The position numbers and the translations under genes are program-made. The notes under the pieces were generated by a model. It was not told where the DNA came from. It made no database searches and saw only the letters and a program-made list of their open reading frames with translations. 64,000 nt of DNA, taken from NCBI GenBank assembly GCA_021775525.1, contig JAJFHQ010000048.1:1-64000 (forward strand), read 5' to 3'. Source of the stretch: Hyphomicrobiales bacterium (GTDB taxonomy: Bacteria > Pseudomonadota > Alphaproteobacteria > Rhizobiales > Methyloligellaceae). Of this stretch, positions 55,027 to 57,750 are shown piece after piece (the first letter of the stretch is position 1; each line of letters begins with the position of its first letter).

Positions 55027-55236
55027 TGGCGATTGTTGCCGCCTTCCTTGCCGTTTTGCAAGAAACCATGATCTGGCTTTAAGACTTAGTTACGGGTTTT
55101 CGGCTCAAATAGGAGTGAATGATCAGGATGGGGACTTGGTTCCCAATCACAGGGAAGCCGAAGTGATATGGATGGCATGGAATATTCCGGCGGTTTAGCC
55201 GATCATGGGATCACAGAATTGACCAAGGCCGGGCCA

Positions 55237-55608
55237 ATGACAAAAACCGTAATGATTGTCGAAGACAATGATCTGAACATGAAGCTGTTCCATGACTTGC
55301 TGGACGCTCATGGCTATCAGACGTTGCAAACAAGAAACGGGATGGAAGCGCTGTCTCTGGCGCGCGAGCATGTTCCGGATCTTATCCTGATGGATATTCA
55401 ACTGCCTGAGGTTTCAGGACTGGAAGTCACGAAATGGCTGAAGGAAGACGATAAGCTTCGCTCAATCCCGGTCGTTGCAGTGACAGCCTTTGCGATGAAG
55501 GGGGATGAGGAGCGTATCCGTGAAGGTGGATGCGAGGCCTATATTTCCAAACCCATTTCCGTATCGAAATTCATGGACACGGTGCGCCAGTTTATTGGCG
55601 ATGCGTGA
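55237..55608 (+). CDS. divK: Single-domain response regulator DivK
   Basis: [39 protein letters not shown]...[16 protein letters not shown]; upstream of pleD. Confidence 0.93.
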
Positions 55609-55633: not shown

Positions 55634-57004
55634 ATGACCGCCCGGGTTCTCGTCGTCGATGACATCGAAGCGAATGTGAAGCTGCTCGAAGCGCGGCTCA
55701 CGGTAGAGTATTTTGAAACGCTGACCGCGCGCAGCGGTGAAGAAGCGCTGCAGATTTGCGCCAGTGAAGGCGCAGACGTGGTTCTTCTCGATGTGATGAT
55801 GCCGGGGATGGACGGTTTCGAAGTATGTCGGCGTCTTAAGGCTGACCCTAAAACACAACATATCCCTGTAATCATGGTGACGGCGCTGGATCAGCCCTCG
55901 GACATGGTGCAGGGGCTTGAGGCAGGTGCTGATGATTTTCTCACCAAGCCTGTCGATGATATTGCGCTCATAACGAGGGTTAAAAACCTCTCACGGCTAA
56001 AAACGCTTACCGATGAAATGCTTATGAGGGCCTCCACAAGTGAACAGATGGGCATGGGACCAGATCCCTCTCTCCATGGTGGTAAGGCAGGACTCGGGGG
56101 TAAAGTCTTGCTGGTTGAAGATCATGAGCGTTCCGCGCAGCGCATTGCGGACACCCTGTCTTCAGAGCAATCTGTTGATCTTGAAAGTGATCCGCAACAA
56201 GCGCTCATCAAGCTGCCCGAGAGCGACTATGATTTGCTGATGGTGAGTCTGAGTTTGTCGGGTACCGATGGGTTGCGGTTGTGCTCCCAGGTTCGTTCGC
56301 TGGATCGAATCCGTCATCTGCCGATACTTATCATCACTGAACCGGGTGAAGATGCGCGACTCCTGCGCGGATTGGATATGGGCGTAAACGATTATCTTGT
56401 ACGCCCCATCGACAAGAATGAAATGTTGGCGCGGGTGAAAACCCAGATTAAGCGCAAACGTTATTCCGACCAGTTGCGCAGCCGTCTTGAAGAAAATGTC
56501 GAGATGGCCATTACCGACCCGCTTACCGGGTTGTACAACAGACGCTATATGGAAGGTCATCTCAAGACCCTCGTTGATGAAGCAGTACAGCGCGGTAAAC
56601 CTCTTTCATTGCTGGTCGCGGACATAGATTTTTTCAAATCCGTCAACGATACCCATGGACATGATGCCGGAGACATCGTGCTCAAGGATTTCTCGGAACG
56701 ACTCAGGCAGAATATCCGGGGAATTGACCTTGCTTGCCGTCTTGGCGGCGAGGAATTCGTGGTGATGATGCCCGATACAGATCTCACCAAGGCCTATGTG
56801 GTGGCCGAACGGTTGCGTCAGTGTATTGCAGAAAAACCGTTCAAAATATCGACCGATACGCAAATACAAATCACGGCCAGCGTTGGAATATCGTCCCATG
56901 AGGGTGTTGAAGATACGCCTGACGCCTTGCTTAAACGCTCCGACCAGGCACTCTACTGTGCCAAGCGTGATGGACGTAACCGTGTGGTCGCAGACGCCGC
57001 CTGA
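55634..57004 (+). CDS. pleD: PleD-type diguanylate cyclase (REC-REC-GGDEF)
   Basis: MTARVLVVDDIEANVKLLEARL; RLGGEEFVVMM active site, RGID (RxxD) I-site five residues upstream. Confidence 0.95.
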   Translation: MTARVLVVDDIEANVKLLEARLTVEYFETLTARSGEEALQICASEGADVVLLDVMMPGMDGFEVCRRLKADPKTQHIPVIMVTALDQPSDMVQGLEAGADDFLTKPVDDIALITRVKNLSRLKTLTDEMLMRASTSEQMGMGPDPSLHGGKAGLGGKVLLVEDHERSAQRIADTLSSEQSVDLESDPQQALIKLPESDYDLLMVSLSLSGTDGLRLCSQVRSLDRIRHLPILIITEPGEDARLLRGLDMGVNDYLVRPIDKNEMLARVKTQIKRKRYSDQLRSRLEENVEMAITDPLTGLYNRRYMEGHLKTLVDEAVQRGKPLSLLVADIDFFKSVNDTHGHDAGDIVLKDFSERLRQNIRGIDLACRLGGEEFVVMMPDTDLTKAYVVAERLRQCIAEKPFKISTDTQIQITASVGISSHEGVEDTPDALLKRSDQALYCAKRDGRNRVVADAA

Positions 57005-57175
57005 CGTAATTCAATGCTTTGTCCGGCGCGTTTGTTACGCCATATTCTCAAAAAAACTGGTGGTTAACTGCGCTTCTAGATCGCAGTGCTTCCTCATTTG
57101 TTGTGTGAAAGTTTAAGGTTAACACTTTACTTTGCCACGGCTTTTCGTGTAATGGCGATATGTGAACTGTTGATT

Positions 57176-57522
57176 TTAGCGGGACGCAGGTTAGGCTATA
57201 CGTGGTGATCCAGCCTGCACTGAAATACGGGGAGGCGTATGAGGGATAAGGGTCGCCGCTCCAAATTGATTAGTCTGGCGCATCCTTCTTATTAGTCTCC
57301 CGCTAAGAGATAACCCTGCGGAGTGCTCAGGTCCGCCGCATCTCCTGGGTCCGTAGGGTTTGGCTGGTCGGTGAACGGTTTGAGTGGCCTCCTCGTTAAC
57401 GCCGCTCATCGGCCGGCCACCAAGTCAAATGACCAAGGCCCTCTTTGGTCCATTTGGCTTGTTGGCCAGTCCTGCTAACCACGTCGGATCTACCCCGCTA
57501 CCGAATTGTTGCAGGGCTGGCC
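57176..57522. ncRNA. Candidate structured non-coding RNA in convergent intergenic region (strand unresolved)
   Basis: TTAGCGGGA/TCCCGCTAA; AACCCTGCGGA(GTG)CTCAGG/CCTGGGTCCGTAGGGTT; TGAGTGGC/GCCGCTCA; about 22-bp hairpin 57415-57467; GGCCAGTCCTGC/GCAGGGCTGGCC. Confidence 0.5.
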
Positions 57523-57582
57523 TTCATATCTATTTCAAAAATGAGAATTCGATTGCGCTCAGGAGACCGGAGAGCATGAAAC

Positions 57583-57750
57583 CTATTTGATCTTGGTTTC
57601 CTTGAAATCGACATGCTTGCGCACGACGGGATCATATTTTTTCATGACCATTTTTTCTGTCAGTGTGCGAGCATTTTTCTTCGTGACATAATAGAAGCCG
57701 GTGCCCGCTGTGCTCTCGAGCTTGATTTTCATAGTGGGGGCCTTGGCCAT
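57583..57750 (-). CDS. rpmG: 50S ribosomal protein L33
   Basis: Minus-strand [55 protein letters not shown]; below the ORF-track length cutoff. Confidence 0.96.

Follow-up and report, generated by a model that had tools for sequence, protein, structure and literature searches.

A probable four-hairpin form of the EcpR1 small RNA between pleD and rpmG in Hyphomicrobiales

What does the gap between the convergent genes pleD and rpmG encode, and is it new? In the 64,000-nucleotide stretch of Hyphomicrobiales DNA analyzed here (the window), pleD (55634-57004, + strand) and rpmG, the gene for ribosomal protein L33 (57583-57750, − strand), were identified from the open reading frame list and from homologues in related loci. 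As the original prediction had it, both genes end at the gap, pleD at 57004 and rpmG at 57583, and an undescribed structured RNA was proposed between them. A putative divK-like response regulator gene from the same list, named from its own sequence (55168-55608, +), lies 5′ of pleD, which fits the synteny of S. meliloti. The arrangement of pleD upstream and rpmG downstream was kept in most related loci. In one genome (G026) the locus was found at the ends of two contigs (L010 and L031), most likely a single locus split by assembly.

EcpR1 hairpins in the pleD-rpmG gap

Both strands were folded, as proposed at the outset as a check: positions 57311-57535 (+) formed four consecutive hairpins, SL1 to SL4, at −112.1 kcal/mol compared to −75.8 ± 4.8 for shuffled sequences (z = −7.5), whereas the fold of the gap on the − strand was unremarkable (z = −1.5). 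The sole Rfam match in the whole 64-kb window was RF02500 (Atu_C6, alias EcpR1), at 57311-57423 (+), scoring 95 bits (cut-off, 60) and spanning model positions 1-113 of 113. From this match and the fold, SL1 was placed at 57312-57360 (+; loop UCCGCCGCAUCUCC) and SL2 at 57361-57419 (+; loop GUGGCCUCCUCGU, of the anti-Shine-Dalgarno type). The EcpR1 family has been described as two hairpins with loops UCCGCCGCAUCU and UCCUCG (PMC3927594), and both the SL1 loop UCCGCCGCAUCU and the SL2 loop motif UCCUCG are present at 57311-57423. The RNA also lies between pleD and rpmG on the strand of pleD; S. meliloti EcpR1 was found in the same gap, from divK-pleD to rpmG, and its overproduction results in elongated cells (PMC4414408). 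Stress induction, a cell-cycle phenotype and repression of gcrA and dnaA have been shown by others for the S. meliloti RNA, which slows the cell cycle under stress; few other sRNAs have been linked to cell-cycle control in bacteria. EcpR1 was carried by 29 of the 30 genomes of the window's family and by 203 of 298 genomes of the order.

Since SL1-SL2 is RF02500/EcpR1 in the pleD-rpmG gap, the description as undescribed was wrong for this half of the RNA; for SL3-SL4 (57421-57522) it holds in part. The EcpR1 form in which two hairpins are followed by a Rho-independent terminator was not found at this locus, where two more conserved hairpins follow and a U-tract is absent. Because the arrangement of two hairpins plus a terminator characterizes the S. 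meliloti RNA rather than the Rfam model, the present RNA remains a member of RF02500, in a variant form.

The inverted repeats traced by hand in the original prediction could now be assigned to these hairpins or set aside. Repeats AACCCTGCGGA (57312-57322)/TCCGTAGGGTT (57350-57360) and GGCCAGTCCTGC (57464-57475)/GCAGGGCTGGCC (57511-57522) are present as predicted. Repeat TGAGTGGC (57381-57388)/GCCGCTCA (57401-57408) is also there, but it is not the conserved pairing, its bases being part of the fixed SL2 loop and of the SL2 3′ arm. Similarly, the long hairpin predicted at 57415-57467 exists, but GGCC at 57415-57418 belongs to SL2, leaving 57421-57461 as SL3 proper. Farther 5′, repeats TTAGCGGGA (57176-57184)/TCCCGCTAA (57298-57306) and GGAGGCG (57231-57237)/CGCCGCTCC (57254-57262) were likewise located, but the structured 5′ element that they were taken to form (57176-57306) was rejected: it folded no better than shuffled sequence and was not conserved in the genus, in whose other members the 9-bp repeat 57176/57306 is not kept. 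The 5′ part of the gap as a whole (57005-57310) folded weakly (z = −2.1), and the presumed leader between promoter and SL1 (57160-57310, +) showed nothing special relative to shuffles (z = −0.75), with few pairs backed by the genus alignment. Positions 57176-57306 are probably just leader and promoter DNA.

Two further hairpins, SL3 and SL4

In the window's genus and its neighbors, SL2 is followed by two extra long hairpins, at the place where two-hairpin families often have an intrinsic terminator. SL3 (57421-57461, +; loop GCCCUCUU) begins one base past the end of SL2 in the window, and SL4 (57464-57522, +) carries an apical UCGG-N-UACCCCGCU-RCCGA; both were delimited by folding and covariation, the latter in 69 distinct sequences, and both lie outside Rfam. 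A search of Rfam 15 over 57421-57522 gave no match past the last RF02500 model bases, even at E values up to 1.

A first covariation alignment (A3) covered close relatives only and varied too little to discriminate. The second (A5) comprised 71 SL3-SL4 sequences (69 distinct), in which standard pairs occupied 92.6% of cells compared to 71.1% in shuffles, although a structure model guided this alignment, which biases it in favor of structure. Compensatory changes in homologues, which the original prediction had asked for, were indeed present: 32 of the 36 SL3-SL4 pairs had changes on both sides, and cells with two-sided changes numbered 554 compared to 153 in shuffles, with none of 500 shuffles reaching any observed value. 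When partners were slid by 1 to 3 columns, SL3-SL4 pairing dropped to 24-52%. RNAalifold, applied de novo to the same alignment, returned 34 pairs, 30 of them with two-sided changes, and single divergent members folded on their own without an alignment gave the same SL3-SL4 structure. Little variation was seen in the loops GCCCUCUU and UACCCCGCU and in the UCGG/CCGA clamp around UACCCCGCU. The SL3-SL4 structure is a real RNA structure. Moreover, G-U pairs outnumbered A-C mismatches in SL3-SL4 by 251 to 28, which indicates an RNA read from the + strand, as for EcpR1. Covariation, the strand bias of G-U pairs and conserved synteny together lend strong support to a structured RNA on the + strand.

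Distribution of the four-hairpin form and alternative readings of SL3-SL4

Models of SL3-SL4 (R1, and R2 built from 71 diverse members) were searched against large genome sets under strict filters, making all match counts lower bounds. Of 398 order genomes, R1 matched at least 43 and R2 at least 55, the R2 matches spanning 13 family groups (f1, f2, f3, f9, f11, f17, f24, f28, f30, f36, f43, f50 and f52). In a sample of 387 genomes from the class, the window's own genome was the sole R2 match under the strict filters. Searching named genomes with a DNA pattern for the two loops gave 70 matches, including Hyphomicrobium, Filomicrobium, Rhodomicrobium, a Methyloligella MAG and many Hyphomicrobiales MAGs; pleD and/or rpmG lay nearby or SL1/SL2 loops lay just upstream in 67 of them. 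The exceptions were L144 and two matches in phyla outside the Proteobacteria; these two (L110 and L156) were rejected as chance matches, without matching structure or synteny. Of 13 related loci scanned with Rfam, picked partly as divergent, one reached the RF02500 cut-off, over SL1-SL2 alone, and most Hyphomicrobiaceae loci tested fell below it. The four-hairpin form shows why Rfam misses EcpR1 in most of these loci.

Mapped onto a 66-row PleD tree (a quick method with SH-aLRT support only, in which the tree alone does not set the direction of change), the four-hairpin form needed 3 changes compared to 20 expected. All four-hairpin rows clustered in a single supported branch, whose 39 rows also included genus g5 and the g1 member L013, both without SL3-SL4. 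The simplest reading of this history is one gain and two losses. Apparent decayed remnants of SL3-SL4 were seen 3′ of SL2 in L011 (g5) and in L013.

A tentative proposal, which we hold somewhat short of even odds, is that SL3-SL4 is a new module whose two fixed C-rich loops recognize their own partner, either mRNAs or a protein. The module would have arisen a single time in a clade centered on Hyphomicrobiaceae, with copies at other sites in some genomes and losses in others; EcpR1 would then be a four-loop RNA reading more than cell-cycle mRNAs. Two second loci, in genomes of Hyphomicrobiaceae type and away from pleD and rpmG, carry an SL4-like hairpin with the same AACCCCGCUGCCG loop on the reverse strand of each locus (L200:1516-1629 and L201:1551-1659), a possible paralogous RNA. 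In f11 genomes (L202 and L203) the SL1, SL2 and SL4 loops were kept and the SL3 loop was unrelated and AU-rich.

SL3-SL4 might instead be a separate RNA or processed module with its own function that merely adjoins ecpR1. The SL4-like hairpin in L200 and L201, the retention of the SL4 loop in f11 where the SL3 loop was lost, and the loss of SL3-SL4 from g5 and L013 with SL1-SL2 kept would all fit such independence. However, SL3-SL4 was found directly 3′ of SL1-SL2, rare second copies apart, and SL3 lies one base from SL2 in the window and close to it in the other four-hairpin loci; SL3 abutting SL2 leaves no room for a separate SL3-SL4 promoter, and we consider this reading unlikely.

Slightly less probable still is that SL3-SL4 acts as a terminator or 3′ protection element replacing the intrinsic terminator of two-hairpin EcpR1. 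Its position at the 3′ end suits this role, as do the terminator counts: a strict scan found an intrinsic terminator after SL2 in 10 of 50 two-hairpin members, and none (GC-rich hairpin plus U-tract) was found after SL4 in 73 four-hairpin sequences. But neither SL3 nor SL4 is followed by a U-tract, and a terminator does not need two fixed loops on varying stems.

It is very improbable that SL3-SL4 is the 3′ end of an rpmG transcript on the − strand: rpmG is directed into the gap, but the fold of that strand described above was unremarkable and the wobble bias favors the + strand. Finally, long inverted repeats between convergent genes could suggest mere DNA palindromes or a mobile repeat with no role as RNA, but this reading is already refuted by order-wide covariation with fixed loops and by the roughly nine-to-one strand bias of G-U pairs over A-C mismatches, and the element is single copy in the genome.

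Promoter, candidate targets and relation to known EcpR1 RNAs

Aligned upstream regions contained a conserved sigma-70-type promoter, CTTTAC-N17-TGTAAT, at 57125-57153 (+). Of 102 sequences, 14 had the motif at 186-213 nt 5′ of the SL1 loop, and each of these came from the window's family; in resampled sequence the frequency was 0.1%. Given the position of the motif, the primary EcpR1 transcript probably has its 5′ end near 57160, some 150 nt ahead of SL1. As for the 3′ end, with no intrinsic terminator found after SL4, we infer Rho-dependent termination or processing. Just 5′ of the promoter, TTAAGGTTAAC (57112-57124) is conserved in the genus and may serve as a site for a regulator.

In S. 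meliloti the validated contact is between SL1 and the gcrA and dnaA mRNAs. A simple duplex energy test without accessibility found SL1 with the gcrA and dnaA leaders of the window's own genome to be no better than shuffles; by the same simple energy none of the four loops paired better with these leaders than with shuffled ones, pairing of SL1, SL3 or SL4 with them being indistinguishable from that with shuffled targets. Exact complementarity gave a different lead. The gcrA ribosome-binding site ACGAGGAGGCCA is a perfect 12-nt complement of the SL2 loop in seven family genomes, which are related and not independent; across 24 family genomes the complement was 12 nt in 7, 11 nt in 2, 7-10 nt in 14 and absent in 1. 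The window's own genome has a gcrA match of just 8 nt to the SL2 loop (GAGGAGGC). Of the 64 genes in the window one exceeds it, namely rpsC, whose 10-nt match extends over the last bases of the coding sequence before it. In L058 the SL2-complementary ribosome-binding site lies about 15 nt 5′ of the gcrA start (1501), the complement extending up to 12 nt in sister genomes.

The 12-nt SL2 complement occurred at 92 places in 30 genomes, and its reversed pattern at 5. Roughly a third of the 92 places (about 31) were ecpR1 itself, nearly all others that could be inspected lay in coding sequence, and most of these other places were in-frame DEEA codons; as a genome-wide target signal the 12-mer was therefore rejected, being dominated by ecpR1 copies and in-frame coding matches. 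With most places thus accounted for, gcrA alone stands out as a recurrent ribosome-binding-site match. SL2 probably covers the gcrA ribosome-binding site in this lineage, and exact complementarity makes gcrA a strong lead as an SL2 target, not a proven one.

We favor, at a probability of about 0.7, the reading of 57312-57522 (+) as a four-hairpin EcpR1 gene with its own promoter, encoding a trans-acting antisense sRNA directed at mRNAs such as gcrA. The gene would be transcribed from the promoter at 57125-57153 into a single transcript carrying SL1, SL2, SL3 and SL4, whose exposed C-rich loops may pair in trans with mRNAs, including cell-cycle mRNAs such as gcrA, and would lower their translation under stress. 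SL3 and SL4 would add two fixed loops that serve either further targets or a protein partner. Many Hyphomicrobiaceae are budding, asymmetrically dividing bacteria in which cell-cycle control is of special interest. The four-hairpin EcpR1 offers a defined candidate site in gcrA at which targeting can be tested, and a clade-wide EcpR1 with twice the conserved loops is a natural experiment on how sRNAs gain and lose target-binding modules.

The locus is new in part: SL1-SL2 is the known EcpR1, and the SL3-SL4 extension is new to the literature searched. SL3-SL4 is absent from the Rfam 15 RF02500 model and from the two-hairpin descriptions found in the open-access literature (PMC3927594 and PMC4414408), in which we also found no paper naming EcpR1 together with Hyphomicrobium. 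Among the closest known systems, S. meliloti EcpR1 (SmelC291, SmrC10 or Sra33; RF02500) shares SL1 and SL2 with their loops, the position between divK-pleD and rpmG, the strand and an upstream promoter of its own. It has two hairpins and an intrinsic terminator, with forms of 101, 142 and 171 nt (PMC4414408), whereas here SL3 and SL4 follow without an intrinsic terminator and the distance from promoter to SL1 is about 160 nt instead of about 30 nt. EcpR1 of Methylosinus sporium likewise has SL1 and SL2 and adjoins rpmG, but was reported with two stem-loops only (PMC12403871). The sRNAs SmelA075 and SmelA099 (PMC3927594) are compared with the present RNA only for the way they may work: they are multi-hairpin RNAs with CCUCCUCCC loops of the C-rich anti-Shine-Dalgarno type on freely varying stems, and differ from it in their loops, in their many copies per genome and in their positions.
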